Source: a gamma proteobacterium symbiont of Taylorina sp. (lineage in GTDB: Bacteria > Pseudomonadota > Gammaproteobacteria > GRL18). Taken from it: 64,000 nt of DNA. The stretch covers positions 124,001 through 188,000 of the forward strand of contig JAHXIV010000037.1 in the NCBI GenBank assembly GCA_025655455.1, read 5' to 3'. Positions 3,419 to 53,601 of this stretch are shown here, piece by piece. Each line of letters begins with the position of its first letter. Position 1 is the stretch's first letter. The notes under the pieces were generated by a model. That model did no database searches. It worked only from the letters and a program-made list of their open reading frames with translations, and had not been told where the DNA came from. The position numbers were made by a program, and so were the translations under genes.

Positions 3419-3442
3419 ATTTTCCATTACAAATAAGAGTTT

Positions 3443-6059: not shown

Positions 6060-6065
6060 AATAAA

Positions 6066-6521
6066 TCAGGCATCCCTCTCAGCACACATTAATTCCGCTG
6101 AAGCCACAAGTTTATCATCCACTGTTGCTCGCGCTGTAAACTTCCAGACACCACGCATACTTTTTATCACATCAACTTTAAGCATCAATTGCTCACCCGG
6201 ATTCACCGGGCGTTTAAAACGAGCTTTGTCAATACCAACCAGATAATATAAAGATTCTTTATTAGCCTTTGTACCGGTAGATTTATAAGCTAATATTCCC
6301 GTCGCCTGAGCCAGAGCTTCAATAACAAGCACACCGGGTAAAATTGGTTTTTGTGGAAAGTGACCGGTAAATTGCGGCTCATTATAGGTCACATTTTTTA
6401 GTGCTAATAATGATTTCCCCGGTACAAAATCAATCACTTTATCAACCAATAAAAATGGATAACGATGTGGTAAATGATCCAGAATATCATTGATATCCAT
6501 TGAGTTCAGTTGATTTTCCAT
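6066..6521 (-). CDS. fabZ: 3-hydroxyacyl-ACP dehydratase FabZ
   Basis: This hot-dog fold enzyme dehydrates 3-hydroxyacyl-ACP in fatty acid elongation and competes with LpxA and LpxD for the same substrate. The core motifs [13 protein letters not shown] and [20 protein letters not shown] contain the catalytic His and Glu. The frame is open from 6545, but I chose the ATG at 6521: it lies one base after the lpxD stop and gives 151 residues, the same as E. coli FabZ. The upstream codons would overlap lpxD. Confidence 0.95.
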
Positions 6522-35177: not shown

Positions 35178-35972
35178 TTATTTATATCCTACAAAACGTT
35201 TTTTAACTACTTTTTGGCCTTCATCAGAACGACTCCAGTCAATAAATTTTTGTACTTTATCCGAAGGTTTACCATGGGTTAGCAAATAGAGTGGTCGTGT
35301 AATAGGATAATTCGGGTTATGAACATGGCCTTTTTGCTGACCAATATCTAAAGTTTTAATTCTGGTTTTCTTGTTAAGAAAGGCAAAACTAATCTGGCCA
35401 ATGCCACCCCAGGCATGAGTCACCTTGGATATAATTTTTCTATCCGGAGCAACAACCTCAGTACCATGATATTCTTCAGTCCCTAATATCTGCTTTCTAA
35501 AAACATGACGTGTTGCTGAAGAGTCTTGTACAGTAAATACTTTGATGGGTGCATCTTCACCGCCCAGTTGTGACCAGTTATTGACTTTGCCGGTAAAAAT
35601 ATCTTTCAGCTGTTGCTTTGACAAATTATTAACAGGATTACGCTTATTAACAATGACGGCAATAGCATCCTTGCCAATTAAAAATCGTTGTATTTTATTT
35701 TCTGCCACTACTGAATCTGCAACACCACCCACATCACATGAGCCTTTAAGAGCACATTGATAACCACCCAGACTTTCTGTATCTATATTTTTTTCAAATG
35801 AGGCTGCTGTATATACTTTAGCAGCATCTGAAATAAATTTTCCAATGGTTGATGAGCCTTCATATTTGATAAGTTGTTTTTTCTGTATAGCACCTGTGGC
35901 AAACAGCGACTGGCTTAACACGAAGCAAGCAGTGAACAAACTGAGAACCGTCAGCAAATAAAATTTTTTCAT
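35178..35972 (-). CDS. PstS-like periplasmic binding protein in a respiratory operon
   Basis: This 264-residue protein has a signal peptide (about 1-26). It has the phosphate-binding-protein fold with YEGSSTIG, LSKQQLKDIFTGKVNNW and a late GIGQISF, typical of PstS. No Pst transporter genes are near. Instead its start overlaps the stop of the tri-heme cytochrome gene by four bases, so it is the last gene of the oxidase operon. It may bind an oxyanion such as phosphate, or have been recruited as an electron-chain accessory. Confidence 0.8.
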   Translation of the reverse strand: MKKFYLLTVLSLFTACFVLSQSLFATGAIQKKQLIKYEGSSTIGKFISDAAKVYTAASFEKNIDTESLGGYQCALKGSCDVGGVADSVVAENKIQRFLIGKDAIAVIVNKRNPVNNLSKQQLKDIFTGKVNNWSQLGGEDAPIKVFTVQDSSATRHVFRKQILGTEEYHGTEVVAPDRKIISKVTHAWGGIGQISFAFLNKKTRIKTLDIGQQKGHVHNPNYPITRPLYLLTHGKPSDKVQKFIDWSRSDEGQKVVKKRFVGYK

Positions 35973-38383
35973 TGGTTAGTTTCCTTATATAAGCTGCGCT
36001 GTCCGCGTACCACAAGTAAGCCTATGATAAACATAAGCAGTGCAAATCCTGCCGGATAAACATAAAGTTTAACGGGATCGCTTTCTGGCGGCAATAACAA
36101 CCAGTACCAGGTAGATAAGGTATGTTTAGAACCTGCTTCACCATTACTACCATCCCAGTTAGCAAATGAGACAGGGATAAACTCACCTTCATTAAAGCTG
36201 ATTTCACCTTCTGTACCAGCACGTTTACGTTTCATCAGGATCTGCCAGCGACCATCAAACCACTCACCCTGAGCTGAGACTTCCTTATAATCCATCATCG
36301 GCTCAGGTTTAGTATTTGGCCCGGATCCTTTAAGCACCATACTGCTTGCTGCCTGCTTAGGTTTCAGACTACCTGCATTCCAATACCACATAGAAGTATT
36401 ATGACTGCTGTCACCATGACGATAAAGCGGTTTTTCTACCATTGGTGCTGAAGTATAGGCTCCTTCCCTTGGAAATTGCATTGCCACAGCATCAGAATGC
36501 AAGGTAAGTTCTTCATCCTGAATGCTCATACTATATTCATGACCGGGCAAGCTGTGGGTACGATCATTCACTTCCATTAAGAAAGCAATTTCATCTTCAT
36601 TATAAAGTACTCTGACACTAATCAGATCATTGAGAGGTTTAAACATGCGTGGTTCTTTAATAATATTAGGCACCAACCTCATAGAAGTCACTGGTGCAGT
36701 TTTCCAGGCTTCATCTGCAATAGTATCCGGTAAATTACCCTCAACTTTAACACCTTGAATCACTCCCTTACCGGGTGCTGTATTGATGTCACGCAACGAA
36801 TAAACATAATTGGCAATATGCCAGCGATCTTCAAGACTGACCGGATCTTCATTGCCTTCACCCTCTGCCCTATGTGCCGGCATTGGAGTACCGGGGATAC
36901 CAATAGAAAGACGGGTATAAATATTTTTAATAATTTGATCACGGACTTTTTCAGGTTCTTTCTCGGCAGTACGATTGGTAGTTCTCCATGACCAGGCCTT
37001 ATTCAGATCTCGCGGCCAGATACGATATCCCCAATCATCTGCCAGCCGTTTTCCAGAGCGCAGATCACCACGTCCCTCCACACCATGACATTCATAACAG
37101 GGTTTAAAAGCTTTTTTACCTTTTGCCGCTGAATCAGCTGAATAAGCAATTTGACCATCTAATGGTTCAATTTCTGTGACATTTTTAAAGTCATCTTTCT
37201 TATAATGTCCTTCATCATCAAAGTCATCATCTTCAGCAGCATCCGGTGCCCAGGTGGCTGAAATATCAAAACGTTTAAGTACGGGAATTAAAGAATTGAT
37301 TTGTTCATCTGTCATCAACTTACTCCAGCCCGGCATACCTGTTCCGCTTAAACCATGTTTGATGGTATCAAACAGATCTTCATCCCGAACCGGCAAAGTC
37401 CCCGGAGATGTTTTATATTTAAACAAGCCCAGAGTAAAGTCCCTTGGTCTGGGATAGAGCGTATCAGCAGCCACACCATCACCCGCCCCCTCTTCACCAT
37501 GACAAACAGAACAGCGTAAATCATAAAGCTCCTTTCCTTTCATTTTTGCCCGTTTACTACTTAACTCTGTTTTCATACCGGTAACAATTTTAGATATTTC
37601 AGCATCCCAGATACGTGGTACTTCTTCTGTATAGTCATATAAAAAAGTAATAACATTCCAGACATCTTCCTCACCCAGCATTTCGTGCCAGACCGGCATT
37701 GCAGATTTCCAGGGTGTCCCTTCTTTGGGCAATCCCGGACCACCGGTGGTAATACGCCAGAATAAAAAGGCTTCCTGCAGCTGGTTAATGGTTTCATCCT
37801 GAAAGTTAATCGGTCTGGGATTAAAGCCATCAGCAAAAATACCCTCGCCGTACATCAGATCACCATGGCAGAAGAAGCAGTTCTGGTAATAAATATCACG
37901 ACCGGCAGACACGGCAGTATTATATGTTTCCCAGCCATCATCCTTATTCCCGGCTTTCATACTGGCAATCACTTTTTCTCTAACTGGATTTTCCAAGCTA
38001 CTCAAATCGTAAGTTTTATTGAAAACTTTTAGCTTGGAAGGCGGTGCAGGATGAACCTGACGTAACTCAACTGGGGAGTCAAAATCAGGTTTCACCATAA
38101 TGTGAGCGGTATAACCAATTAACGCCGGTATGGCTAACAAGAAGAACCATCGAATAGGCCAGGTATTGTCTTTTTGCGTGACAGCAGCAATAGGTGCCTT
38201 AAAACGTGACCAGGTATCCTCATCAAAAGAGAAAAATAATAGTACACCTATCACACAGATAATCATGTATTGAATTAATAGTGATACCGGCAACAGGGGT
38301 GGTATACCATATTTAAAGAATACAAATACGGCAACTAAAATGATAACGGCCATTAATAATGGCGGAAATTTAAAACTTTTCAT
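35969..38383 (-). CDS. Tri-heme cytochrome c with ethylbenzene-dehydrogenase-type domain
   Basis: This 804-residue membrane protein has two or three N-terminal hydrophobic segments (about 8-23, 28-51, 79-97). Three CxxCH sites follow at 169-173 (CFFCH), 291-295 (CSVCH) and 429-433 (CYECH), each in a class I cytochrome c-like domain. Residues about 545-765 resemble the heme b-binding gamma subunit domain of ethylbenzene and DMSO dehydrogenases. A C-terminal membrane segment lies near 775-793. It probably carries electrons at the periplasmic face for the CydA-like protein. Confidence 0.85.
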   Translation of the reverse strand: MKSFKFPPLLMAVIILVAVFVFFKYGIPPLLPVSLLIQYMIICVIGVLLFFSFDEDTWSRFKAPIAAVTQKDNTWPIRWFFLLAIPALIGYTAHIMVKPDFDSPVELRQVHPAPPSKLKVFNKTYDLSSLENPVREKVIASMKAGNKDDGWETYNTAVSAGRDIYYQNCFFCHGDLMYGEGIFADGFNPRPINFQDETINQLQEAFLFWRITTGGPGLPKEGTPWKSAMPVWHEMLGEEDVWNVITFLYDYTEEVPRIWDAEISKIVTGMKTELSSKRAKMKGKELYDLRCSVCHGEEGAGDGVAADTLYPRPRDFTLGLFKYKTSPGTLPVRDEDLFDTIKHGLSGTGMPGWSKLMTDEQINSLIPVLKRFDISATWAPDAAEDDDFDDEGHYKKDDFKNVTEIEPLDGQIAYSADSAAKGKKAFKPCYECHGVEGRGDLRSGKRLADDWGYRIWPRDLNKAWSWRTTNRTAEKEPEKVRDQIIKNIYTRLSIGIPGTPMPAHRAEGEGNEDPVSLEDRWHIANYVYSLRDINTAPGKGVIQGVKVEGNLPDTIADEAWKTAPVTSMRLVPNIIKEPRMFKPLNDLISVRVLYNEDEIAFLMEVNDRTHSLPGHEYSMSIQDEELTLHSDAVAMQFPREGAYTSAPMVEKPLYRHGDSSHNTSMWYWNAGSLKPKQAASSMVLKGSGPNTKPEPMMDYKEVSAQGEWFDGRWQILMKRKRAGTEGEISFNEGEFIPVSFANWDGSNGEAGSKHTLSTWYWLLLPPESDPVKLYVYPAGFALLMFIIGLLVVRGQRSLYKETNQ

Positions 38384-38388
38384 AGTTA

Positions 38389-39369
38389 TTATTCGCCCTT
38401 TTGCTCAGTATTGGATTCAGTGTCGGTTTCAGGTTCAGGAACTGTTTCAGTATGTTTCGGAGTGTCATTTTCATTAGAAACTTCTTTCTCAGGCTCCTTA
38501 GTCTCAGAATTTTTACTATCAACAGCTTTACTTTGATAGAGAAAATCAACCACCATTTCCAGTTCTTTAACTATCATTTTATTAGCAAAGTCCGGCGGCA
38601 TAATAGGTGGGAAGCCCTCAGCAATCACTGCAGATGGATTAATAATACTTTCTCGAATTTCTTCTTTAGATAAACGAGAACCGATTGTTTTCAGTTCCGG
38701 TCCAATCGTTGCAGGACTATCCAGAACCGCATGGCAGGCAGTACAGCCATTTTTAGTTAAAACAGCTTCAGCAGTTTCTGCTGGTTTTGGTGGTTCTGCA
38801 GAAGCCGCTGACTTTTCTGCAACAGCGGGAGCATCGGTGGGCAATTCAACCGTTGGCTGCCCCCCATCTTTGGCTTGTAAATAGGCAATCACTGCTCCCA
38901 TTTCAACCTCAGTCAGTTCAATCGGAGCTTTATCAATAATCGGCATGGTAGAGGTCTCACCCTGTTTACCAAAACCTGCCACAATAAATTTACTGGGTTC
39001 AATCATAGATTCACGGAAATAACTTTCTGAATCTTTAGCTGTACCCTTATATTGCGGATCTTTCAAGCGTTCCAAAGCTGTCGCTTCCATATCCATTACA
39101 GGAATATCCGGTGCACGCCCCATATTGTTATGGCAAAGCGTACAGGTGCCTTTTCCTTTAAAGATACTTTCTCCCATGGCAATATAGCTTTCCATGGTTA
39201 AAGCACCTAAATCGACTTTGATATCTTTTGGAGCCTGTCCTTCTACCTGAGGTAATAAATTAGCGATTCCGGTAAAAACCAGTATCATAAACAGCATAAA
39301 TGAAAGCACTTTGACAATGATCGGCAGCCCACCGCTTTCCTTAATTATTTCGTCTTGCATTGTTTCCAT
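38389..39369 (-). CDS. Membrane-anchored di-heme cytochrome c
   Basis: This 326-residue protein has one N-terminal membrane anchor (about 18-40) and two heme-binding sites, CTLCH at 76-80 and CTACH at 209-213. The second domain has the later INPSAVIAEGFPPIMPPDF segment typical of class I cytochromes. A Pro/Ala/Glu-rich linker joins the two domains, and the C-terminal 40 residues are Glu/Thr-rich and low in complexity. It lies between the CydA-like and tri-heme cytochrome genes with short gaps, so the three probably form one complex. Confidence 0.87.
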   Translation of the reverse strand: METMQDEIIKESGGLPIIVKVLSFMLFMILVFTGIANLLPQVEGQAPKDIKVDLGALTMESYIAMGESIFKGKGTCTLCHNNMGRAPDIPVMDMEATALERLKDPQYKGTAKDSESYFRESMIEPSKFIVAGFGKQGETSTMPIIDKAPIELTEVEMGAVIAYLQAKDGGQPTVELPTDAPAVAEKSAASAEPPKPAETAEAVLTKNGCTACHAVLDSPATIGPELKTIGSRLSKEEIRESIINPSAVIAEGFPPIMPPDFANKMIVKELEMVVDFLYQSKAVDSKNSETKEPEKEVSNENDTPKHTETVPEPETDTESNTEQKGE

Positions 39370-39380
39370 TATAGTGCCCC

Positions 39381-41201
39381 TTATTGCTCAGACTTTTGTA
39401 CAGGCACTGCCTGTCTGGTTTCACTTAAAGAAGCCACCCAGAAAATAAACAGGATCAGTATCAGAAATGCAACCGTGGCCACTGTCATCATATTTGCCGC
39501 ATAACCAATATTAGGAATAAAATTATCTGTCGAGTTATCCTTTATCACTGTATAGACATGCCAGTGTGTGCGTACTGAAGAACGCACATAGCCCATCAGA
39601 GCCATCAGCCAGGTAAAGGCTATGGGTAAAGCAAAAAGAGCATAAACCCCGCGATTAGAAATTTTGCCCCAGGTCACAGGCAAATTCTTTGCACCTTTAA
39701 ACATCATCGTATCAATAGTGACACCAGCAATAATGACAATCAAAGTGGACATAACCTGAGCCACTGAAGATCCTACTTTATAAACTGTGTTGGTATAATA
39801 ACCATAGTAAACACCCAGAAAAATAACGTTAGCAATTGCAACCAGATAGATGGCCGCCATTAAAGCATTACCAAATCCAGCCCATGCCACAGTAATCTCT
39901 TTATCAGAGCGGCGATAAAGCTGGAAGGACAGAAAAGTACCAATCAGCATTAAATTCACGGCAATATTTTTGGCCGGCATAATACCAAATGGCCCTAATA
40001 GCGGATGATGTGAACCACCCAGATCAGCAATTTCTTTAGCGGATAAAATCAAGGTATGAGGGGTCACCCAGATTAAAAAGCTGCCGACCAACGTGACGGC
40101 AATATATTTAATAAGCCAGGTATAACGTTTTGATCCTTCGCAGCGCGACATGCCATTCCATAGATAATAATTGGCCGCCAATAAAATGGTTCCAATCAAT
40201 ACTGCCTGTACAATAAATAACCAGGCCAGAATTCCACCCATGGCAGTAATACCCATTTGCTGTGAATAGGCATAAATTTCAGCCATCAACCAGTAACCGG
40301 CAAAAGGCAGGGGTAAAAAGGCTAATACCGCAATAAAGTTTGACGTATAACCCATCCAGTCATAATGAGCACGCTGAGCCATAGTACGGGCGCTGAGCAT
40401 TTTATAACCAGCATACGCTCCAACCACTGCACCGCCAAAAGCGATATTAGCCACGAAGCGATGTAAGTTCAACGGGTTCCATAAAGGACCACGCATAATA
40501 TCCCATATACCGCCTGTTACTACACCAGCTTCGTCCACACCGGAAGGAGCCATCATAAAAGTTGCCCAGGCATTGGCTACAAATAACAGCGTGGTTCCAA
40601 CCCCATTAAGCAGAACACCCAGAGATAAATGAACATACTTTTTGTTGCCATAACGCAGCGCATACCAACTATAGTAATAAATATACAAAACACCACTTTC
40701 CAGAAAGAACAACAAAGCATAAACCATCACCTGATTGCCGAATACTTCCATCATATAAGCCATAAAGGTGGGATAAAGCAGGAATAAAGAGAAAGCAAGA
40801 GTGCCGCCAAATAATGCTGTCAATGAATAAGCTGTCATAGAGACTTTCATAAATTCATGCGCCATATCATCATAGCGCTGGTCTCCCGTCTTAACACCAA
40901 TCCATTCAATCACTGTAACAAATAAAGGCACAGCAAGAACAAAAGCCGCCAAAAAGAGATGTAATTGTGCGACCACCCAGACAAAGGCACGACTGCTCAC
41001 CGAACCGATTTGACGATAATCTGAGGGCCCCATTCTGGGGGCGGCTTTCTTTTCTATAGTAGCATCAGCCGCCTGTTCAGCCGTTTCTATTATTGTATCT
41101 GCTGACCAGGCTAATTCCGTAGTCAATGTTAAACTGCTAAACACCACAAGCAAAAGAAACACTGACATTAAAGGCGAGCGTAATTTTATATAAGTGAACA
41201 T
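39381..41201 (-). CDS. CydA-like cytochrome bd-type oxidase subunit I
   Basis: This 606-residue protein has many membrane helices and resembles subunit I of bd-type quinol oxidases. Candidate heme ligands are the His in VAQLHLFLAAF (like E. coli H19) and the His in LNLHRFVANIAFGG (like H186). It differs from standard CydA by an N-terminal signal-like segment and a 60-residue leader region. A GRQPW motif and a clear Q-loop are not visible. No cydB lies in the window. Coupling with two c-type cytochromes suggests it does not simply oxidise quinol. Whether it reduces oxygen is open. Confidence 0.75.
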   Translation of the reverse strand: MFTYIKLRSPLMSVFLLLVVFSSLTLTTELAWSADTIIETAEQAADATIEKKAAPRMGPSDYRQIGSVSSRAFVWVVAQLHLFLAAFVLAVPLFVTVIEWIGVKTGDQRYDDMAHEFMKVSMTAYSLTALFGGTLAFSLFLLYPTFMAYMMEVFGNQVMVYALLFFLESGVLYIYYYSWYALRYGNKKYVHLSLGVLLNGVGTTLLFVANAWATFMMAPSGVDEAGVVTGGIWDIMRGPLWNPLNLHRFVANIAFGGAVVGAYAGYKMLSARTMAQRAHYDWMGYTSNFIAVLAFLPLPFAGYWLMAEIYAYSQQMGITAMGGILAWLFIVQAVLIGTILLAANYYLWNGMSRCEGSKRYTWLIKYIAVTLVGSFLIWVTPHTLILSAKEIADLGGSHHPLLGPFGIMPAKNIAVNLMLIGTFLSFQLYRRSDKEITVAWAGFGNALMAAIYLVAIANVIFLGVYYGYYTNTVYKVGSSVAQVMSTLIVIIAGVTIDTMMFKGAKNLPVTWGKISNRGVYALFALPIAFTWLMALMGYVRSSVRTHWHVYTVIKDNSTDNFIPNIGYAANMMTVATVAFLILILFIFWVASLSETRQAVPVQKSEQ

Positions 41202-41235
41202 AATGTTTATTCCAAAAATGTATGTTGTGTAGATT

Positions 41236-41361
41236 TTACTGAGCAGGCGTCATATCAATATTAAGAGGCAAGCCCTGCATAGACATAATGGCATGATCCA
41301 TCAAATAAAATAAAGCAAATGCAATGACAAAGGACAACAACCAGTTTTTCAGAGTTTTCAT
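41236..41361 (-). CDS. Small one-helix membrane protein of the oxidase operon
   Basis: This 41-residue frame starts MKTLKNWLLSFVIAFALF and ends DMTPAQ. GGAG lies five bases before the ATG. One hydrophobic helix spans about residues 6-21. Its place just upstream of the CydA-like gene recalls small CydX-like subunits, but there is no sequence match I can assert. Confidence 0.6.
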   Translation of the reverse strand: MKTLKNWLLSFVIAFALFYLMDHAIMSMQGLPLNIDMTPAQ

Positions 41362-41404
41362 TTTTTCTCCAGATCTTAAAGAGCGTTTATTTATGATGTC
41401 TCAC

Positions 41405-41569
41405 TTAATGATGCGATACAACACCATGATCATAAATAACCAGCCACCACATAAAGATTAAAGTACCCGCAAGGGTGATCCTTAACATCCAGGGTCCCCA
41501 GGTTGCATCATCATGAAGTGAAGTATTAGTGATACTATTCAGATCAGTATTATTTTCTTCAGTACTCAA
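41405..41569 (-). CDS. Small one-helix membrane protein, TTG start
   Basis: This is a 54-residue protein if started at the TTG at 41569, which has GAGGA seven bases upstream. A longer frame reaches 41650 but lacks that support. The N-terminus is polar and acidic (STEENNTDLNS). A membrane helix (MLRITLAGTLIFMWWLVIY) follows, and the end is DHGVVSHH. It leads the bd-like oxidase operon. The His-rich end might bind a metal. I do not recognise the family. Confidence 0.6.
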   Translation of the reverse strand: MSTEENNTDLNSITNTSLHDDATWGPWMLRITLAGTLIFMWWLVIYDHGVVSHH

Positions 41570-42038: not shown

Positions 42039-44555
42039 TTGCAAACAATAAATCATCATGTAATTGATCGCTTATTAAATTATCTCGAAAATGGTGATGA
42101 AGTCGATCGTTGCTATGCAGCAAAAACGCTGGGAAATCTCAAAGTTAAAGCTGCAACCAGCGCCCTGTTAGAACGCATTAAAGATGAAGACATCGATGTC
42201 TGCATTGATGCGGTGACCGCATTAGGAAAAATTAAAGACTTTTCTGCTATTCCATCTTTACTGGAATCACTTGAAAAAGATCCCGATAGTGATGTAAAAC
42301 TTGCAATCACCGAATCTCTGGTTTATTTTCAGAGCCAGGATGCCATTGATGTCTTGTTAAAACTTGCTGAAGATCGTCCCGAGGGAATGGATTTTGACCA
42401 AAATGACGATTGGGACAGCTGGTGGGACTTACAAGAAAAAGCCATCTTCATTCTGGGTGAAATGAAAATACAAAAAGCAGTGCCCATTTTAAAAGATATT
42501 TTAGAAGATGAGTTCAGTCAGGATATTGAATCTATTGTACTAAAAGCTCTGGCAAAAATTGGTGGTGATGCAGACGAATATTTAATTAATCGCCTGAACA
42601 ATAGTGATAATACTTATGCAGAAAAACACCAGCGTCGTACAGCAACTGCACTGGGTTTTTCACAGAGCAAAGAAACCTTACAGGCTTTAGGACGTGCTCT
42701 GGTCAGCAAGTCCGCCGATACAAGAGAAAATGTGATCTATGCACTGGGTCAACGCAAAGCCAGTCAATATATAAGAGCCATACTATTGAGTCTACGGGAT
42801 CCCAATGCCAATGTTAAAAGTGCAGCATTGGAAGTTGTGCAGCAATTAGCGAGTGAAACACAAATTGATCAGGAGTTGGATTTTAATCAAATTGCAGCAT
42901 TCTTGCATAATAACCTGCAGAATAAAGACTTGTCTGATAAAGATATTACCTTACAAACCACAGTTTTATCTTTCTTTAAAGAGCAGGAGAAAATTCATCC
43001 TGTCATCGCTAAACTAAGCAAAGAAAATCAAAGTTTGATACACCAAAGCCTTTTATCATCTAATGATAATGTGCTCACTCAGGCAGCTCAGCTCGCAGGT
43101 ATTAGCCGGGATCCAGACAATGCAGAAGCTCTGTTTAATCTGGCATTTTCTGAAAGCCACTCAGTCTGGGTGAAAAAAGAAGCTATTTTAGCTTTAGGCA
43201 CTATCATTAACAACATAGAACCTGAGCATAGAAAACAAGCTCTATTAGACTTAAGACAACTGGTACATCATGAAGAGCAGGCCGTACGATTTGCAGCTTT
43301 GCAATCATTGTTAACCCTTTCCAATGAATATCAGCTGCCAGAACCTTCAGATGATGATAACGAGCTACCGCCGATCAGCATATTATTAGCCACTTTAAAA
43401 GGTGAACAATTTGATATTCAGGCGGAGGATGAAATCTGCAGTACAGGTGAAACTCCAACAGAAGATAATTGCAGCAGTTGTCCAAAAAATACAGCCTGTT
43501 CAGATAATATTCAGCTTACAGAATCTATAATAAAACAATTTGAAGACAATGATATAAAGGAAAGTACTCATCTGATTGCTGACAATGAAGACCAGACAAT
43601 AGGTGCTGCACAGTCAACCTTAGAAGCCATTGCCATGGATAATGTTGAAAGCACTTTATCTGTTATTCCTGAAACAACTGAACAAAAATCACACAACAAA
43701 GAAAGCGGGCCATTTATTTCAGAAGAACTACCAGAAGAGCTGGATGAATATGTCGCTATTATGCGTAAAAACTTTTCTGCTGGAAAAAAGATTGTAAGGA
43801 GAAAGATCAATACCTTTAGTGATGCTCGTCACATCTGTGCACGCTTGCTTTCCGATAATATTCACAGTCGGTATAATGAGCTTATTGTCAGTACTCTGTC
43901 AGAATGTTTAAATGATGAAGATGAACAATTACGTCAGGAAGCAGCTGAGACGTTATCACTGATCAGTTTAAAAAACCCTTTAATACCTGGCTTAAATAAT
44001 ACCTTTGGCAAGCTGGTCACACTATTGGACAGCAAAGATTCTGATATGAGAATTGCTTGTATCCATGCGATTAGCCATTCAGGTAATCCTGCAGCACTAC
44101 CTCATCTACTGGATTATTTATCTGATGAAGAATATATCGTTAAACTACAGGCAATTGAAGGTCTGGTCTATATACTAAATAATACGGCTGGACTGACTCA
44201 GGAACAAAAAGATGAGTTCATGGTTTTGGATGAAGTCAATCCAACTCAGATTGTAGCTGCACTTTTTGACTGTTTAGAAGATAAAAACTATAGTGTATCA
44301 ATGAGTGCTATTGAGGCTCTGGTTGAACTAAAACAAACGGATGCGATTGAGAAATTTGTTGATGTTGCACTCACAGGAGAAGGTCAGTCAGCAAGGCAGA
44401 TTTCAAAGTTATTGAAAAAACTGGATGTAGAAAAAAGTACTGAAGTTCTTTTAGCGCGACTGGATAGTGTTTCTGACAGCTCTTATAGACGTTATGTAAT
44501 GGAAATGCTGGAAGTTGTTATAGACTCAGATGAAGGACAAAAGCAAGCGGCTTAG
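42039..44555 (+). CDS. HEAT-repeat protein with central Cys cluster
   Basis: This 838-residue cytoplasmic protein consists of two helical HEAT/PBS-lyase-like repeat arrays (about 1-430 and 570-830), with units such as VDVCIDAVTALGKIKD and DSDVKLAITESL. The linker holds four cysteines at 467, 478, 481 and 487 (C-x10-C-x2-C-x5-C), a possible Fe-S or zinc site. It starts at TTG 42039, with GGAG eight bases upstream. Such proteins act as scaffolds. The divergent oxidase operon suggests a role in its regulation or assembly. Confidence 0.8.
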   Translation: MQTINHHVIDRLLNYLENGDEVDRCYAAKTLGNLKVKAATSALLERIKDEDIDVCIDAVTALGKIKDFSAIPSLLESLEKDPDSDVKLAITESLVYFQSQDAIDVLLKLAEDRPEGMDFDQNDDWDSWWDLQEKAIFILGEMKIQKAVPILKDILEDEFSQDIESIVLKALAKIGGDADEYLINRLNNSDNTYAEKHQRRTATALGFSQSKETLQALGRALVSKSADTRENVIYALGQRKASQYIRAILLSLRDPNANVKSAALEVVQQLASETQIDQELDFNQIAAFLHNNLQNKDLSDKDITLQTTVLSFFKEQEKIHPVIAKLSKENQSLIHQSLLSSNDNVLTQAAQLAGISRDPDNAEALFNLAFSESHSVWVKKEAILALGTIINNIEPEHRKQALLDLRQLVHHEEQAVRFAALQSLLTLSNEYQLPEPSDDDNELPPISILLATLKGEQFDIQAEDEICSTGETPTEDNCSSCPKNTACSDNIQLTESIIKQFEDNDIKESTHLIADNEDQTIGAAQSTLEAIAMDNVESTLSVIPETTEQKSHNKESGPFISEELPEELDEYVAIMRKNFSAGKKIVRRKINTFSDARHICARLLSDNIHSRYNELIVSTLSECLNDEDEQLRQEAAETLSLISLKNPLIPGLNNTFGKLVTLLDSKDSDMRIACIHAISHSGNPAALPHLLDYLSDEEYIVKLQAIEGLVYILNNTAGLTQEQKDEFMVLDEVNPTQIVAALFDCLEDKNYSVSMSAIEALVELKQTDAIEKFVDVALTGEGQSARQISKLLKKLDVEKSTEVLLARLDSVSDSSYRRYVMEMLEVVIDSDEGQKQAA

Positions 44556-44680: not shown

Positions 44681-45412
44681 ATGAAAAAATTAATTGCATC
44701 TATTGCATTAGCAACTGCAGCAACTCTCACCATGCCGGCTATGGCTGCTTATAAAGTAGTTGATGTTGCCAATGGCGGCACTATCACTGGAAAAGTTAAT
44801 TTTACTGGTAATGACAAGGCTCCCCAGACATATAAAGTAGCCAAAGACACTGATACTTGTGGTACTGCTAATCGTAAAATTGATTATGTCGATGTGAAAG
44901 ACGGTGCCTTAAGAAATGTAGTGGTTTATCTGGATAAAGTAAAATCCGGTAAAAAATTCGATCCTATTGATGTCCAGATTGATCAGAAGGGCTGTGATTT
45001 TATACCCTTTATGAGTGTTATGACTAACGGTGCAATGTTTGAAGCCACTAACTCTGATCCTGTTTTGCATAATATCCACACTTATGAAATCATGGGGCGT
45101 GCAAAAAAGACGGTTATGAATGTCAGTCAGCCCAAGCAGAATTCAGTTACCAAAAAGAAAGTTAAACTAAAGCGTGGCGCAGGCATGAAGATAGAATGTG
45201 ATGCTCATGACTTTATGCATGGTTTTGTTTTTGTCGCAAAAAACCCATACTACGCGATGGTCGCTGAAGATGGTACTTATACAATCAGTGATATCCCCGC
45301 GGGTAAATACAAAGTTAAAGCATGGCACGGTACCTTAGGTGAGCAAAAAGGCAAAGCCGATGTAGCAGCCGGTGCTTCAGCAACTGTTGATTTTACTTTT
45401 AAAGGTAAGTAA
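44681..45412 (+). CDS. Secreted cupredoxin-like protein
   Basis: This 243-residue protein has a signal peptide (cut after AMA, residue 22). The body has a beta-rich core with candidate copper ligands: H130 and H133 in DPVLHNIHTYE, then C173, H176, M179 and H180 in ECDAHDFMHGF. This spacing suits a type 1 copper site. The C-terminal part (about 187-243) resembles a carboxypeptidase-regulatory-like domain. An AGGA site precedes the ATG. It may shuttle electrons or copper in the periplasm next to the oxidase genes. Confidence 0.72.
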   Translation: MKKLIASIALATAATLTMPAMAAYKVVDVANGGTITGKVNFTGNDKAPQTYKVAKDTDTCGTANRKIDYVDVKDGALRNVVVYLDKVKSGKKFDPIDVQIDQKGCDFIPFMSVMTNGAMFEATNSDPVLHNIHTYEIMGRAKKTVMNVSQPKQNSVTKKKVKLKRGAGMKIECDAHDFMHGFVFVAKNPYYAMVAEDGTYTISDIPAGKYKVKAWHGTLGEQKGKADVAAGASATVDFTFKGK

Positions 45413-45785: not shown

Positions 45786-47792
45786 ATGCAAGACAGTAAT
45801 ACTGCAACTCAGATAGAAGATGAAATAATCCCGCAGCTGGATACGGCTTATCATTCTATTTTAATGGCGGTTGATTCTTCTGATCATTCTAATCGTGCCA
45901 CTGATGATGCGATTGAATTGGGGCAGTTATATCAGTCGACTATTACTGCTTCTCATGTGTATGCTGCGCAAATGCATGATATGCGTTTTAAGCAGATGGA
46001 AGGTGGTTTACCTGAGCAGTTTAAGGAAGAAGATGAACTGGAACGGCAAAGGGATATTCATGATTCATTAATTACTAAGGGTTTGTCTATTATTACCGAT
46101 TCTTATTTAATTCAGGCTGAAAATGCATGTAAAAAGACAGGGCTGATATTTAAAGGGCGTTCTTTAGAAGGTAAAAATTATAAAATTCTGGTCAATGAAG
46201 CCAATAATGGTCACTATGATCTGCTGGTCATGGGTTCACTGGGATTAGGAGCCATTGCCGGTAGCACTATTGGTACAGTTTGTGAGCGTGTTGTGCGTAG
46301 AAGTACTGTGGATACCTTAGTCATAAAGCAACCGCAACGAAGTATTAAAGATGGACCGATTGTGGCTGCTATTGATGGTTCAAAACAATCCTATGCAGCA
46401 CTAATTACGGCTTTTAATCTGGCCAGACAATGGCAGCTGCCCCTGAAAGTCGTGTCAGCCTTTGATCCCTATTATCATTATGTTGCATTTAATAAAATTG
46501 CCGGTGTTTTAAGTGATGAAGCAGGTAAGGTTTTTAAATTTAAAGAACAGGAACAATTACACGAAGAAATTATTGATGACGGTCTTGCAAAAATTTATCA
46601 GGGACATCTGGATGTTGCTGAACAAATGGCTGAAGAACGAGGTATTGAGATAGAAACTCATTTGTTAAGCGGCAAACCCCACCATGCCATTGAAGAATAT
46701 ATTGATAGAATCAAAGCCAGCTTATTAATTATCGGTAAAATTGGAATTCATTGTGATGATGAACTGGATATTGGCGGCAATAGTGAAAATCTATTACGCA
46801 ATTCATCCTGTGCTTTATTACTCACACAACGTGAATTTACTCCCCCTGTTGAACTCATTGCAGAAACTACCACAACCTGGTCAACTCAGTCTGAAGAGGC
46901 TATGCGGCGTATTCCTCCCTTTGTACAAAATATGGCCAGAGCAACGATATTACGTTATGCGCAGGCTGAAGGTCATACGGTAATTACAGCCAGTATTGTG
47001 CATGAAGCCACAAAAAATATGTGCCCCGCCGGTATGAAGAATCTGGATAATTTAGTGGATGCTGCAACTGCAGCCAAACAGGCAAAAGAATCCAAATCAA
47101 CAGCAGGTGCATTTAATATGGACTGGTCTGCTGAGGCAGATGAAATTCTGCAGCAGGTTCAAGATAATACCTTACGTAATAATACAAAAATGCGCGCTGA
47201 GAAACGGGCTTTAACTGAGAAGTCCACTATAGTTGAAGTCGATCATATTTTACCTTTTGTGGTGAACCCTTCGCTAAAAAAAGAGCTGCCCTCTCCCTCC
47301 TCCTCTAAATGCCCTTTTTCCAGCATGGGAAAATTAGAGGATTCTATGGAGGAAGTTGATTTACCCTGGCATCAAGACGCTCTGACCAGATTAGAGAAGA
47401 TACCCGAGGGCACCAGTCGCAATATGACCAAAAAAGCTGCGAATGCGATTGCACAACAACAAAATATTGAAACTATCAGCCTGGAATTTCTAGAAAATAT
47501 TCTCAGTATTTTTAATTCAGGCTCCAAAAAGGTCATAATAAATTTAACCTGGACAAAGGATGCTGAAGCAGCTATTGCAAAAGCACCGTCAATGGTTCAG
47601 GGAATGTTAGTCCAGGAAATTGAGGCTTTTGCAAAAAGAGAAAATTTAACTGCAGTTGGTTTTGAAACTGTTCAACTGGTTAAGAAAAAATGGACAGATG
47701 AGGGATATTTTCATCTTGATCCTGATGATTCAAGAAGCTCTTCACCCCCTCACCCTGACCCCCTCCCAAAGGGAGAGGGAACAAATGGATAG
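45786..47792 (+). CDS. Universal stress protein tandem with PCP_red-like domains
   Basis: This 668-residue protein starts with two Usp domains (about 20-181 and 189-347); the first keeps the ATP-binding glycine pattern GSLGLGAIAGSTIG. Four helical segments follow at about 364-410, 446-490, 528-575 and 589-637. They share an opening W, then EA or DA, then P, the pattern of the PCP_red domain found at the end of light-independent protochlorophyllide reductase subunit B. The first is the clearest. The same domain closes the next gene. The last residues (SPPHPDPLPKGEGTNG) come from a repeat element. The function is unknown. Confidence 0.78.
   Translation: MQDSNTATQIEDEIIPQLDTAYHSILMAVDSSDHSNRATDDAIELGQLYQSTITASHVYAAQMHDMRFKQMEGGLPEQFKEEDELERQRDIHDSLITKGLSIITDSYLIQAENACKKTGLIFKGRSLEGKNYKILVNEANNGHYDLLVMGSLGLGAIAGSTIGTVCERVVRRSTVDTLVIKQPQRSIKDGPIVAAIDGSKQSYAALITAFNLARQWQLPLKVVSAFDPYYHYVAFNKIAGVLSDEAGKVFKFKEQEQLHEEIIDDGLAKIYQGHLDVAEQMAEERGIEIETHLLSGKPHHAIEEYIDRIKASLLIIGKIGIHCDDELDIGGNSENLLRNSSCALLLTQREFTPPVELIAETTTTWSTQSEEAMRRIPPFVQNMARATILRYAQAEGHTVITASIVHEATKNMCPAGMKNLDNLVDAATAAKQAKESKSTAGAFNMDWSAEADEILQQVQDNTLRNNTKMRAEKRALTEKSTIVEVDHILPFVVNPSLKKELPSPSSSKCPFSSMGKLEDSMEEVDLPWHQDALTRLEKIPEGTSRNMTKKAANAIAQQQNIETISLEFLENILSIFNSGSKKVIINLTWTKDAEAAIAKAPSMVQGMLVQEIEAFAKRENLTAVGFETVQLVKKKWTDEGYFHLDPDDSRSSSPPHPDPLPKGEGTNG
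47742..47782 (+). repeat. PHPxPLPKGEG-type repeat inside the Usp gene end
   Basis: The GC-rich segment (ccctcaccctgac and ctcccaaagggagaggg) has a small hairpin, ctccc-aaa-gggag, and translates as PHPDPLPKGEG. This nucleotide and peptide word is familiar from dispersed repeats in many proteobacteria. Here it is in frame and supplies the stop region. Confidence 0.65.
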
Positions 47793-47817: not shown

Positions 47818-49161
47818 ATGAACGATAAGCTCTTTCAACATTATGACAAATATGATCATCATGAGCTTTTTTTATTAGCCATTAATGTCACCAAACGTTG
47901 TAACCTTGCCTGCGAACATTGTTATCTGGATGCTGATACCTTAAAAAATGGTCAGTCTGATGAGTTAAGTCTTGTCGAAGTCAATTTATTATTAGATGAA
48001 GTAGCCAGCCGCAGTACGCAAACAATGGTAGTTTTAACCGGAGGTGAACCTCTGGCACGAAGCAATCTGGAAGCTATGATTCAGCATGGTGCTGATTTAG
48101 GCTTATCCATGGTAGTCGGAACTAATGGTACATTACTCACATCCAGACGCGTCGCATCATTAAAATCTGCTGGTGCTTTAGGGCTTGGGATCAGTGTTGA
48201 TTCCTTACATCCGACACAACATGATCAATTTCGCGGCCTTAACGGCAGTTGGAAAAAGACTTTTCAGGGGATACAGCACTGCAGAGAACAAGATTTATCT
48301 TTTCAAATTCATTTTACCGTCACCAGTAACAACTACTCAGAACTCAATGCTATTATCTGCTTTGCCTATGAAAATGGAGCCAGGGTACTCAATTTATTCT
48401 TTTTAATTTGTACTGGTCGAGCCGAATCCACTTCTGATATTACACCTGAACAATATGAGCAGGTATTAACACAAACCATTCAGGCACAAACAGATTATCC
48501 GGATATGATCATCCGTCCACGCTGTGCTCCTCATTATAAGCGCATCGCACATCAACTCAATCCTGACTCCCCTATTACCCGAGTGAGTGGTTTTGACGGA
48601 GACGGCTGTATTGCCGGTACTCATTATTGTCGTGTCGCACCTAATGGCGATGTGACAGCCTGCCCCTATATTGATACAGCCTCAGGTAATATCCGTCAAC
48701 AGAGTTTTCTTTCTATCTGGGATAATGCCAATGAATTTCAATCGCTAAGAAAGCCGCTTCTTAAAGGGGCTTGTGGTGAATGTGAGTACAAAAAGCTCTG
48801 CGGCGGCTGCCGTGCCCGCCCCCTTGCTATGGGTGGAGATTTAATGGACTCTGATCCCTATTGTGCTTATGTACCAGAGGGTGGAAATATTATTGAGCCA
48901 TTTCAGGAAATCATCGATAAGTCAATTATCTGGCATGAAGAAGCCCGTCAAAGACTCTCCAGAATTCCCGGATTTTTACAGAAAATGATTAAAAAACGTG
49001 CTGAAGCCTATGTATTAGAACTAGGTGAAACAGTGGTTAAGGCCGAACATCTGTCTAATTTAGCCAGTAAACGCTTTGGCAGTAAATTACCTTTTTCCAA
49101 ACCTTCTCCCGGACAATCAAAATCAACTTCAGATAATACAAGCAGAGAGTCATTTTCATGA
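47818..49161 (+). CDS. Radical SAM/SPASM protein with C-terminal PCP_red domain
   Basis: This 447-residue protein has the radical SAM motif CNLACEHC (C28, C32, C35) and LTGGEPL. It ends the catalytic part with a SPASM/twitch Cys set (CRVAPNGDVTACPY, then CGECEYKKLCGGCRARP). This resembles NirJ and AhbC/AhbD, which process heme precursors. Residues about 370-422 (IIWHEEARQRLSRIPGF onward) match the PCP_red domain. Its stop overlaps the next start, a protoporphyrinogen-oxidase-like gene, in ATGA. A role in tetrapyrrole processing is likely but not certain. Confidence 0.8.
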   Translation: MNDKLFQHYDKYDHHELFLLAINVTKRCNLACEHCYLDADTLKNGQSDELSLVEVNLLLDEVASRSTQTMVVLTGGEPLARSNLEAMIQHGADLGLSMVVGTNGTLLTSRRVASLKSAGALGLGISVDSLHPTQHDQFRGLNGSWKKTFQGIQHCREQDLSFQIHFTVTSNNYSELNAIICFAYENGARVLNLFFLICTGRAESTSDITPEQYEQVLTQTIQAQTDYPDMIIRPRCAPHYKRIAHQLNPDSPITRVSGFDGDGCIAGTHYCRVAPNGDVTACPYIDTASGNIRQQSFLSIWDNANEFQSLRKPLLKGACGECEYKKLCGGCRARPLAMGGDLMDSDPYCAYVPEGGNIIEPFQEIIDKSIIWHEEARQRLSRIPGFLQKMIKKRAEAYVLELGETVVKAEHLSNLASKRFGSKLPFSKPSPGQSKSTSDNTSRESFS

Positions 49162-50606
49162 GATCATCGACAGCTCATGAATATGATGTTGATGTGCTGG
49201 TCATTGGCGGCGGTATTTCCGGTCTGACAACTGCTTCCTATCTTAGCAGTAATGGCTTATCTGTTCAGATTTGGGAAAAAACTGATCGTGCCGGTGGTAA
49301 GATAAAAACTAATCATACTGATGGTTTTCAAACTGAACAGGCCGCCTCAATGGTGATGAATTTCAGACCTGAAGTCGATCAGTTTTTACAACAAACAGGT
49401 TTAGAACAATATAAAATTAAACGTTCCCTGAAATCTGAAAATCAACGTTATCTAATACATCAGGGAAAATTACAATCTTTACCCATGACAATTGGCCGCT
49501 TATTCCTTTCTCCCCTATGGAGTACTTCCGGAAAATTCAGATTATTGATGGAGCCTTTTATATTTAAAGGCACTCATAGCAATGAAACAGTCACTGAATT
49601 TGTCAGTCGTCGTTTTGGTAGTGAGTTTCTGGAAAAAGCCATGGAGCCTTTTATCTCAGGAACTCTGGCTTCTGATCCTGATCTGGCCTGTGCACAATAT
49701 GTTATTCCAAGATTAACCGCATTGGAAAAAAAATATGGCAGTATTACGGCCGGTATTTTTGCCCATAAAATTCTAGGTAAACGAACAGCCAGAAATCCTG
49801 AAAGTTTTTCATTTAAAGATGGAATGGAAACACTAACCAAAAGATTAGCGGCTAATCCTGTAGTTGGATTTCAGTACAACTATCAGGTGCAAAAAATCAT
49901 TCAACATGGCCATTACCACTGGGAAGTTCAAGCTTCAACACCTGAAGGGGATATTCAGTGCAAATCCCGGCATGTGGTCATTACAAGCCCGGCAGAAACT
50001 GCCGCTCGCTTACTTTCTCCTTTAAGTCAAACATTATCAGATACATTATCCAGTATTAAATATACCTCTTTATCTGTAGTTCATCTTGGCTATGAACAAT
50101 CAGCCGTCAAACATTCTCTGGACAGTGCTGGCTTCCTGGTGCCCAGACAAGAAAAAATGAACATTAATGGTAACTTATGGATGAGTTCTATTTTTTCCGG
50201 TCTAACACCTGATAAGCATATTCTTTTATCCAGCTATCTGGGTGGTACTCGTCATCCATCTGCAATTAATTTATCCCATCAGCAAAGCATTGAACAGGTA
50301 ATAGAAGACATCAATTCATTGCTCAATATTAATGATTCACCAGTGATGACCAGAGTTGATAAACACCCTAAGGCATTGCCGCTATATCATGGTAATTATC
50401 ACCAGAAACTTTTATTGATTAAAGAGCAATTACAAACATTAGCAGGACTACATATCGAAGCCAATTATAAAGGTGGGATTTCTATAAGAGATCGGATTGT
50501 CTCCGCAGAAAAAACAGCCAATAAAATTATCCATCATTTACATTTGGGCAATGAACCTGAACGCTTATTTTTTTCTAAGCCCTCTCTAAGACCAGTCATC
50601 TCCTGA
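49158..50606 (+). CDS. Protoporphyrinogen oxidase-like flavoprotein
   Basis: This 482-residue protein has the FAD-binding GGGISGLTTASYL motif near residue 17, then WEKTDRAGGKIKT. The middle resembles HemY/PPO-type amine oxidases (FVSRRFGSEFLEKAMEPFISG). It would oxidise protoporphyrinogen IX or a related porphyrinogen. It is coupled to the radical SAM gene and to the small gene downstream, so it may serve a specialised heme step rather than housekeeping synthesis. Confidence 0.82.
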   Translation: MRSSTAHEYDVDVLVIGGGISGLTTASYLSSNGLSVQIWEKTDRAGGKIKTNHTDGFQTEQAASMVMNFRPEVDQFLQQTGLEQYKIKRSLKSENQRYLIHQGKLQSLPMTIGRLFLSPLWSTSGKFRLLMEPFIFKGTHSNETVTEFVSRRFGSEFLEKAMEPFISGTLASDPDLACAQYVIPRLTALEKKYGSITAGIFAHKILGKRTARNPESFSFKDGMETLTKRLAANPVVGFQYNYQVQKIIQHGHYHWEVQASTPEGDIQCKSRHVVITSPAETAARLLSPLSQTLSDTLSSIKYTSLSVVHLGYEQSAVKHSLDSAGFLVPRQEKMNINGNLWMSSIFSGLTPDKHILLSSYLGGTRHPSAINLSHQQSIEQVIEDINSLLNINDSPVMTRVDKHPKALPLYHGNYHQKLLLIKEQLQTLAGLHIEANYKGGISIRDRIVSAEKTANKIIHHLHLGNEPERLFFSKPSLRPVIS

Positions 50607-50965
50607 TGAGTAATTATGAGATTTCTACTGATGATTTTAAACCCACAAAGTTTAAAACTATTCCTTTTGTCTTTAGTATACTAATCATTATTTTATTTAT
50701 TTCTCAGGCTATCCAATGGTATAGCCGCTCCGTTACGCTACCCAGATTTTGTGAGGATCCGCAACTATCATTACATCATCTACAGGAAATCATTACTCAA
50801 CAACCTCCCCATGTCAAGATAGCTGAATTAGCAGGAAGAGAAGCCAGAAAACCTTATATTATTGCCGCCAAACTCATTTATATTATTCCACAAAAAGCCA
50901 ATGAATCAATAGAAGATTATATTCATCGTGTGCATCAGGAACTCAGTCAGCGGTGTATGCGGTGA
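50606..50965 (+). CDS. Small membrane protein, unknown function
   Basis: This 119-residue protein has one membrane segment (about 20-40, FVFSILIIILFISQAI) and a likely periplasmic C-terminal domain. Its start shares one base with the preceding stop, and its end overlaps the sensor kinase start, so it is translated with both. It might sense or stabilise something for the kinase. No family is recognised. Confidence 0.7.
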   Translation: MSNYEISTDDFKPTKFKTIPFVFSILIIILFISQAIQWYSRSVTLPRFCEDPQLSLHHLQEIITQQPPHVKIAELAGREARKPYIIAAKLIYIIPQKANESIEDYIHRVHQELSQRCMR

Positions 50966-53601
50966 AACAAAATAAAACTGCTATAGACTATTTTTTTCCC
51001 GGAAAATCCCAGTCTTTTATCTGGCACTTCCTGCTATTTTTTATTCCAGCCGCCATTGTTTTAATTATAGGTATTAGTCTACACTATTCCTTTCATGTTA
51101 AGGCAAATAAGGAAAATTTAGAAAAAACGGACTTGCTTAATATTCGTTTAGCGCAATTAACAATCAATAATGTGTTACAGGATATTGTGTCTGATATTAA
51201 ATATCTGCAGGAACACAATCAATTAAAAAATGGCTTTCTCAATACACCCAGAGCCAGGAAAATACTGGAAAATGATTTTTTAAGCTTCAGCCGCAACCGA
51301 AAAATTTATGATCAGATTCGTTATCTTGATGTGGAAGGAAAAGAAATTGTAAGAATTAATTTTAATAACGGTCATCCCATTATCGTTAAGGAAGAACACC
51401 TACAGGAAAAAGATAATCGCTACTATGTTGCCAGTACGCTGGCCTTGCAAAAAAATGATATTTACTGGTCTCCCTTCGATCTTAATCTGGAAAATAATAA
51501 AATTGAAAAACCATATAAACCCACTATTCGTATTGGCACCCCCGTTTATAACACCGATGGTCATCGTACCGGTGTATTAATATTAAACTTTGATGGAAAA
51601 AAACTCATCAATGAATTTAAACGCGCTACAGCCAATATCGCCGACCATATCATGTTAGTTAATGACTTTTCATATTGGCTGATTCATCCACAATCAAAAT
51701 ATGAATGGGGCTTTATGTTTGCAGATTCTGATAAAGCAACAACTGAGATACGTACCTTTGCCCAGCAGTTTCCGGAATTATGGCAGACAATTTATAATAC
51801 ACAGCGTGTCAGTCAACATTATATTGATCATGATTTACTCACCTATGCCACTATTTTTTTTAATACCATTGGTAGAAATGCACCGGAAAATGATACTATC
51901 AGTAACTTGTATTCTCAACAAAAAAAATCATTTTGGAAAATCATTGCTTTTTCACAAGCAAAATTATTTGATCAATCTCATATAGAATTTCTTAAACCTA
52001 ATGCTCTATTTTATATTATTATTTTTTTTGTCATTATCAGTAGTTCAGTATTACTCGCCCGCTTACAAATTAATAAACAAAAAGCTGAATCTCAAGGAGA
52101 ATATGATCGAGGCTTTAGAAACATTCTGGAATCTATGGATCTTATTGCCATCACCCTGGATAAAGAGGCCAATGTAATTTTTTGTAACCATTCTTTTATA
52201 GAGCTATCAGGCTATGACAAAGAAAGTGTGTTAAACAGCAGCTGGTTTCAAGCCTTTATTGGAAAATCTGAAAGACCATTTTGCCAGCAAAAATTTGCTG
52301 AAAGCTTTAGCACAGGTATTAGCGGTTCTCAAAGAGAGGGTGTAATTATTATCAAAAACGGCTCAAAGCGTTTAATATGCTGGAGTACCACACTCTCCTA
52401 CGATAATCAGAATAATCCCGTCAGTATTACCTACATTGGCAGCGACATCACTGAACAGCGCTATACAGAAAATGAACTTAGAAAAGCCAGTCAGGCAATT
52501 GAACAAAGTCCGAGTACGGTTCTTATTACAGATACTTCAGGAAAAATTGTCTATACTAATCCAAAATTCACCGAATTGACCGGTTATAGCAAAGAAGAAG
52601 TGCTTGGTGAAAACCCAAAAATTCTACACTCAGGTGAAACCAGTACAGAAGAATACAACGAGCTCTGGAGCGCCCTGAGAAGTGGGAAAGACTGGTCAGG
52701 TGAATTTCATAATAAGAAAAAAAATGGTGAACTTTACTGGGAATCAGCACATATTTCGGCAATAAAAGATGCTGATGGAAATATTACTCATTACCTGGCA
52801 GTTAAAGAAGATATTACCGAGAAAAAACAACTTGAAGAAAAAGTTGAATTACACAATGAAGAAATCAGAAAAAACCAATTATTAGCAGGGGTTGGGAAAA
52901 TGGCCAATATGATTGCTCATGATCTCAGGAATCCATTGTCTTCTATTAAAATGGGCATGCAGATTTTAAAAAATCAGGTTCATCAGCCGATGGGAGAAGA
53001 TGGTGAAGAACTGATTGATATCAGTATGGAACAGGTTCATTATATGGAATCTATTCTCAGTGATCTTTTGAGTTTTTCTCGTCCTGATCAACTGAATACT
53101 GAATGGTTATCTGTTGATCAGCTCATTGATACCTCTCTGGTTAGCGTACAAACAAAAATAGATAGTAATCAAATTATTGTCAAAAAGGATTATCAGACCG
53201 GACTGCCAACTATCTTTGCTGATAAGACAAAGTTAAGACAGGTATTTTCTAATTTAATTATTAATGCCTTACAGGCATTCAACAGTCAGCCGGGAGATAA
53301 ACAAAAAGAGCAAAATATTATTTTAATTATTGTCTCCTTAAAAATTACCCAGCTTGGCCCAAAACTGGAAATAAAAATTATTGATAATGGTTCAGGAATT
53401 GATAAAGAAACTCAGGAAAAAGTATTTGAACCATTTTTTACAACCAAAGCCAAAGGGACAGGCTTGGGACTGGCTATCGTACAACGTATTATTGAGCAGC
53501 ATAAAGGTCAGATTACTATCCATTCAATGATTGAGGAAGGTACCGAAGTAACCATTATGCTGCCTATTTCCACAATTGAATCACAGGCAAGCAGTACATA
53601 A
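50953..53601 (+). CDS. PAS-domain sensor histidine kinase
   Basis: This 882-residue membrane kinase has a first membrane helix (about 24-45), a large periplasmic sensory region (dCACHE-like, about 46-350) and a second helix (about 353-370). Two PAS domains follow (about 385-500 and 510-625), the second with YTNPKFTELTGYS. The phosphoacceptor H656 lies in MIAHDLRNPLSS, and the ATPase domain has DNGSGI and GTGLGLAIV. Another possible start is the GTG at 50962, which overlaps the preceding stop as GTGA. It pairs with the NtrC-type regulator 40 bases downstream. Confidence 0.93.
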   Translation: MYAVKQNKTAIDYFFPGKSQSFIWHFLLFFIPAAIVLIIGISLHYSFHVKANKENLEKTDLLNIRLAQLTINNVLQDIVSDIKYLQEHNQLKNGFLNTPRARKILENDFLSFSRNRKIYDQIRYLDVEGKEIVRINFNNGHPIIVKEEHLQEKDNRYYVASTLALQKNDIYWSPFDLNLENNKIEKPYKPTIRIGTPVYNTDGHRTGVLILNFDGKKLINEFKRATANIADHIMLVNDFSYWLIHPQSKYEWGFMFADSDKATTEIRTFAQQFPELWQTIYNTQRVSQHYIDHDLLTYATIFFNTIGRNAPENDTISNLYSQQKKSFWKIIAFSQAKLFDQSHIEFLKPNALFYIIIFFVIISSSVLLARLQINKQKAESQGEYDRGFRNILESMDLIAITLDKEANVIFCNHSFIELSGYDKESVLNSSWFQAFIGKSERPFCQQKFAESFSTGISGSQREGVIIIKNGSKRLICWSTTLSYDNQNNPVSITYIGSDITEQRYTENELRKASQAIEQSPSTVLITDTSGKIVYTNPKFTELTGYSKEEVLGENPKILHSGETSTEEYNELWSALRSGKDWSGEFHNKKKNGELYWESAHISAIKDADGNITHYLAVKEDITEKKQLEEKVELHNEEIRKNQLLAGVGKMANMIAHDLRNPLSSIKMGMQILKNQVHQPMGEDGEELIDISMEQVHYMESILSDLLSFSRPDQLNTEWLSVDQLIDTSLVSVQTKIDSNQIIVKKDYQTGLPTIFADKTKLRQVFSNLIINALQAFNSQPGDKQKEQNIILIIVSLKITQLGPKLEIKIIDNGSGIDKETQEKVFEPFFTTKAKGTGLGLAIVQRIIEQHKGQITIHSMIEEGTEVTIMLPISTIESQASST

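Follow-up and report, generated by a model that had tools for sequence, protein, structure and literature searches.

The stretch of DNA analysed here, 64,000 nucleotides of contig JAHXIV010000037.1 (positions 124,001 to 188,000; assembly GCA_025655455.1) and hereafter called the window, comes from a marine, sulfur-oxidising gammaproteobacterial symbiont of Taylorina sp. and encodes on its minus strand an operon in which a CydA-like protein of the cytochrome bd family is joined by two c-type cytochromes. The CydA-like protein (39381..41201, minus strand) is 606 aa long, with a leader, about 13 transmembrane (TM) helices and no Q-loop, and is assigned by a structural model, a tree and a match to Pfam family PF01654 of 60 bits against a cut-off of 26.2. 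Next in the operon are a membrane-anchored diheme cytochrome c with an N-terminal TM helix (38389..39369, minus strand; Pfam cytochrome c, synteny) and an 804-aa triheme cytochrome c/EB_dh fusion (35969..38383, minus strand; Pfam, model and fold matches). The fusion runs from an N-terminal TM region and heme 1 through a diheme module like Kuenenia Kustc0458 (hemes 2 and 3) to an EB_dh fold and a C-terminal TM region. The two cytochrome genes hold two and three CXXCH motifs, confirming the five c-type hemes counted in an earlier note on this region.

Also found in the operon, 5' of the CydA-like gene, were two micro-ORFs, each with one predicted TM helix. The first (41405..41569, minus strand; 54 aa, TTG start) carries the motif WGPxLF..LVFFWWLLIYSHGV..HH, and the second (41236..41361, minus strand; 41 aa, with a GGAG ribosome-binding site) the motif FYxxDHxIMxxQGLPLNxDxTPAQ. 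Both motifs recur 5' of the CydA-like gene in most loci examined, the first in Gammaproteobacteria and Alphaproteobacteria alike, as would be expected of genuine small subunits similar to CydX, which we infer them to be. The earlier note drew the unit from 35178 to 41569. Its upstream end stands, 41569 being the TTG of micro-ORF 1, and its bd-like and cytochrome genes stand as well. The PstS/PBP-like gene at the other end (35178-35972), which runs over the EB_dh stop codon, was rejected as a subunit: it has no match in any related locus, so the unit starts at 35969.

A scan of species genomes yielded 80 related loci, mainly from marine Gammaproteobacteria (Beggiatoa relatives, Sedimenticola, Thiolapillus), with others from Alphaproteobacteria and a few deltaproteobacterial metagenome-assembled genomes (MAGs). 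The order CydA-like, diheme, EB_dh was kept in 53 of the 54 loci with sufficient downstream sequence, indicating that the arrangement is not due to chance. The CydA-like gene is rare, being present in about 11 of 274 sampled gammaproteobacterial genomes and in 4 of 398 genomes sampled across the phylum, and a tblastn search of a plasmid collection with the CydA-like protein returned no relatives. Among the sampled Gammaproteobacteria, strict ties to NirS-type denitrification (6/11 carriers vs 48/263 others, P 0.009) and to reverse Dsr sulfur oxidation (6/11 vs 80/263, P 0.10) were both rejected, leaving enrichment at most. Three loci (L079:2470-4599, L145 and L165) have a second bd-like copy of greater length (709-727 aa), in tandem with the first; these longer copies make up a deep clade of their own. 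In a Sulfuricaulis MAG (L043:17720-21450), genes for a divergent type II dimethyl sulfoxide (DMSO)-reductase beta subunit, a TorD-like protein and an EB_dh-diheme protein lie near the bd-like operon, an assemblage that recalls the gene cluster of nitrite oxidoreductase (NXR).

The host genome (4.5 Mb in 104 contigs, reported completeness 100%) has the gene at 39381-41201 as its sole PF01654 match and gave no match to CydB (PF02322) anywhere, as the earlier note supposed from the window; CydB was also missing from the conserved operon of the related loci. Two proteins matched PF00115, and judging by their neighbouring genes we read these as a cbb3 oxidase and NorB.

An AlphaFold2 model of the CydA-like protein, built from a 26-sequence alignment (mean pLDDT 80, pTM 0.81), matched ten CydA structures at Z scores of 24-26 over residues 58-600, ActF/ActC of alternative complex III (ACIII) at 15-18, and PsrC at 13.5; no other solved relative stood out, the weaker rows being left uninterpreted. 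Residues were mapped by a profile alignment with E. coli CydA, and ligands were surveyed over 80 close and 26 diverse relatives. H19, H186 and E107 of the E. coli protein correspond to H81, H247 and E168, which are invariant in 80/80 close and 26/26 diverse relatives. The quinol-site residues K252 and E257 are replaced by G317 and G322, both invariant glycines, making a c-type cytochrome the natural reading of the electron donor. Extra helices occupy the position of the Q-loop, and this region holds the invariant residues H382, E390, H399 and K411. The GRQPW motif, which the earlier note could not recognise, is VRTHW here (V-R/K-T-H-W-H among relatives), with W547 and H548 invariant, and the secretory-type leader it described was found as a hydrophobic segment before the bd core, with similar segments in several relatives. 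In a tree from a quick search under a simple model, with canonical CydA rows from Gammaproteobacteria only, all bd-like sequences fell apart from 16 canonical CydA with 100% SH-aLRT support and a separating branch of about 8 substitutions per site. Placement outside canonical CydA, no cydB elsewhere in the genome and conserved linkage to the cytochromes, each of which might have turned out otherwise, bear out the proposal of a cytochrome c-linked bd-family complex; the observation was essentially right, and its interpretation is supported and extended.

The model of the EB_dh protein (pLDDT 78.5) falls into the parts listed above. The first heme domain is weakly similar to ACIII ActE (Z 10-11), the diheme module resembles Kustc0458 (6h5l_B; Z 21.1, 36% identity, profile match E 6e-43), and the last domain is of the EbdC/NxrC type, matching 2ivf_C (the EbdC fold) at Z 24.3 and 7b04_C at Z 21.8. 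An ethylbenzene-dehydrogenase-type domain is thus present, as claimed earlier, but its binding of heme b is unproven, since 20 of 21 sequences have Gln in place of the Met in the "MFP" motif of EbdC and NxrC. Separate genes encode the monoheme, diheme and EB_dh parts in L079 and L080. A further EB_dh protein occurs elsewhere in the host genome, on contig C20 (L127:3845-8461), where a NirS-type cytochrome cd1 gene is followed by one for a 921-aa protein that combines a NapC/NirT domain, six CXXCH motifs and two EB_dh domains.

Facing the operon on the plus strand is a companion cluster that suggests modification of a heme. It opens with a HEAT-repeat protein (42039..44555; Pfam), the first gene of the divergent operon, whose divergent position is kept in many relatives, followed by a secreted cupredoxin-like protein (44681..45412; synteny) in which HNIHTYE ... 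ECDAHDFMH is conserved across a 47-sequence alignment and which probably binds copper. Downstream are a fusion of universal-stress and PCP_red domains (45786..47792; Pfam, synteny), a radical SAM/SPASM protein of the NirJ2/AhbD type with a C-terminal PCP_red domain (47818..49161; Pfam, NCBIfam, co-occurrence), and a HemY-like FAD oxidase (49158..50606; synteny, and TIGR00562 at 258 bits, above cut-off). The radical SAM protein scored 311 bits against NirJ2 and 293 against AhbD in NCBIfam, both under cut-offs of 500, and from this family resemblance the gene is probably dedicated to tetrapyrrole modification. Members of its family (>400 bits) were found in 9 of 11 carriers of the CydA-like gene and in none of the 263 other gammaproteobacterial genomes (Fisher P 2.6e-15). 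Although these genomes cannot be counted as independent, the carriers belong to several families. The search alignment excluded L014, a Usp-PCP_red protein. The cluster is divergent in the window and lies on either side of the operon in other loci. Regulation may be served by an associated PAS histidine kinase (50953..53601, plus strand; Pfam), relatives of which adjoin the operon in other loci, and a sigma-54-dependent response regulator (53642..55024, plus strand; Pfam) that shares 37-40% identity with regulators encoded at plasmid idr loci and 33% with AioR. A gene for a SCO1/SenC-type protein follows in the window (55075-55710) and is also found in L039, L040, L045-L049, L051, L056 and L076; in Sedimenticola-type loci it lies shortly after the EB_dh gene, a hint of copper or thiol-redox maturation. 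In L018 (831-2849) and similar loci a radical SAM protein (673 aa) has three C-terminal PCP_red repeats, an unusual domain combination.

Many relatives of the operon adjoin genes for iodate reductase, the four-gene set idrABP1P2 (PMC8692401). Among the 45 loci with more than 4 kb of downstream sequence, idrP1, usually followed by idrP2, idrB and idrA, lay on the same strand 3' of the EB_dh gene in 28, with a median gap of 703 bp (range 79-6149), a fraction that is descriptive because the loci are MAGs picked by similarity to the window. These 28 loci, with complete or partial sets, belong to both Gammaproteobacteria and Alphaproteobacteria. The host genome has such a set on another contig (C50, L126:3659-9406), where idrA, idrB, idrP2 and an idrP1-like gene encode an AioA-like Mo subunit, a Rieske protein and two diheme peroxidases, probably constituting an iodate reductase in a sulfur oxidiser. 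Host IdrA falls inside the clade of bd-linked IdrA, a group set apart (48% identity) from the plasmid-borne Idr of Azonexus and Thiothrix, and no bd-like gene was found in the Azonexus and Thiothrix plasmid idr regions. Idr has been described as an island with poorly conserved surroundings, with no bd-like neighbour mentioned in the available portion of that account (PMC8692401), and as oxygen-sensitive (PMC11445184). In the limited library searched, which is not proof of absence, we found no report tying bd-like oxidases to iodate reductase or to sulfur oxidisers.

The heme ligands are retained, the quinol site is gone, the c-heme partners are constant and genes for heme modification accompany the operon; together this favours a membrane-bound terminal reductase, fed by cytochrome c and built on a noncanonical bd core, whose substrate is most probably O2; judged from gene content and protein comparison, we give this reading a probability of about 0.5. 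Electrons would enter from a periplasmic c-type cytochrome or from the co-encoded cupredoxin-like protein and travel through the five c hemes, first to a b heme bound by H247 and from there to an active-site heme bound by H81. The oxidant reduced there would be a small one, most probably O2. Maturation of the active-site heme may fall to the radical SAM, HemY and PCP_red proteins encoded by the companion cluster. Most of the sampled relatives might use the complex beside iodate reductase, for example to clear O2 or peroxide that forms close to this enzyme or is harmful to it.

Several observations weigh against an oxygen reductase of this kind. E99 of E. coli CydA is Tyr here and the heme ligand E445 is Ser, and the stretch aligned with M393 contains no Met, which may mean an altered or even missing O2 site. 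Anammox bacteria, which are strict anaerobes, are reported to have related clusters (PMC3578206, PMC6606698), and the host already has a cbb3 oxidase. Adjacent idr genes are absent from 17 of the 45 loci, and the host's own set lies on another contig.

The loss of E445 and M393 and the anammox homologues keep alive a doubtful but serious alternative, in which the complex is an adaptor with no oxidase activity: an ACIII-like cytochrome c-quinone oxidoreductase that connects the quinone pool with high-potential oxyanion molybdoenzymes of the periplasm (NXR, Idr) by way of a new quinone-binding site within the extra helices. Such a role has been proposed for the Nitrospina bd-like protein (PMC3578206), the ActF/ActC and PsrC alignments and the four invariant residues replacing the Q-loop are consistent with it, and the Sulfuricaulis locus pairs the operon with a divergent type II beta subunit and TorD. 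Invariance of H81, H247 and E168 argues otherwise, however, as do CydA matches far above those of ActC and PsrC (Z 25 vs 18) and the absence of the known quinol residues, and an adaptor would make the dedicated heme-modification genes hard to explain.

About as tentative is the proposal that, in marine sulfur-oxidising Proteobacteria, the bd-like complex is a dedicated iodine redox component whose heme is specially modified by the radical SAM and HemY proteins, and that it either finishes iodate respiration by reducing O2, H2O2 or hypoiodous acid (HIO) formed in the periplasm or serves iodide-oxidising lithotrophy with O2. Less probable still is an enzyme specific to iodine, which would reduce HIO or H2O2 that IdrAB leaves behind, or would act in an iodide-oxidising chain running in reverse, with Idr as the oxidant of iodide and the complex passing electrons to O2, much as the related complex goes along with nitrite oxidation. 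The same-strand idr linkage in two classes keeps this idea alive, as does the separateness of bd-linked IdrA from the plasmid forms, and the step from HIO to iodide has no assigned enzyme (PMC8692401). Against it stand the loci without adjacent idr, related clusters that accompany NXR, and idr loci such as that of Azonexus that have no bd-like operon; by literature accounts, other species reduce iodate with idr alone.

That the complex is a partner of NXR in a cryptic nitrite oxidiser is disfavoured and very improbable, despite the same gene set around NXR in Nitrospira, Nitrospina and Kuenenia (PMC3578206, PMC6606698). A PF00384 search of the host genome, an assembly reported as 100% complete, did not find NXR. 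NxrA is about 1,150 aa long, and the seven matches in the host lie in shorter frames of at most 910 aa. An ordinary quinol-oxidising CydA with an unassembled CydB, for which the PF01654 match over cut-off might speak, is refuted by the absence of CydB, the residue survey (no quinol residues, helices for the Q-loop, M393, E445 and GRQPW gone), the deep separate branch in the tree and the fixed linkage to c cytochromes.

The kind of complex is one already described in Nitrospira, Nitrospina and Kuenenia. In Nitrospira moscoviensis "bd-like_3" occurs with an alternative NxrC_2 and two membrane cytochromes c, with matching clusters in Nitrospina gracilis and Kuenenia (PMC6606698, PMC3578206), and the Nitrospina protein is reported to have 14 helices, including helices that replace the Q-loop, and no quinol residues (PMC3578206). 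Shared with these clusters are a CydA-like protein of the same description without CydB, an EB_dh-type partner with c hemes and TM segments, mono- and diheme c proteins and, in some loci (L079, G228), a tandem second copy as in Nitrospira; the likeness is by description, direct matches being limited to the Kuenenia Kustc0458 and NxrC structures for the EB_dh protein. Unlike those organisms, the host has no NXR, and the monoheme, diheme and EB_dh parts that are separate in Nitrospira, as in L079 and L080, are fused here. The companion radical SAM/HemY/PCP_red cluster, and idr in many relatives, also set the operon apart from the Nitrospira-type cluster as described in the available accounts. 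The OR-C and OR-N bd classes (Murali et al. 2021, via PMC10839748, PMC12342949 and PMC13189123) likewise contain CydA relatives without a quinol site, a resemblance by description that leaves the class of the present protein unassigned; use of cytochrome c has been predicted for OR-N enzymes (PMC10839748). With canonical bd (CydAB, E. coli bd-I) the protein shares the CydA fold and equivalents of H19, H186, E107, R448 (R or K) and W451, but it differs in having no CydB, quinol site, E99, E445 or M393 and in its added c-heme subunits. New here are the conservation of gene order, the two micro-ORFs, the co-occurrence of the heme-modification cluster and the linkage to iodate reductase.

For more than ten years, bd-like oxidases that lack a quinol site have figured in discussions of nitrite oxidisers and anammox bacteria with no reaction assigned to them. 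The heme-modification gene set and the iodate reductase link provide two handles, one on the type of heme carried and the other on a possible role in the cycling of iodine, a process that matters where seawater is poor in oxygen. A version tied to the heme-modification set and, in many marine bacteria, to idr argues against a module confined to nitrite oxidation, and its recurrence with genes for heme modification and often beside those for iodate reduction suggests a little-known respiratory branch with ties to iodine chemistry.

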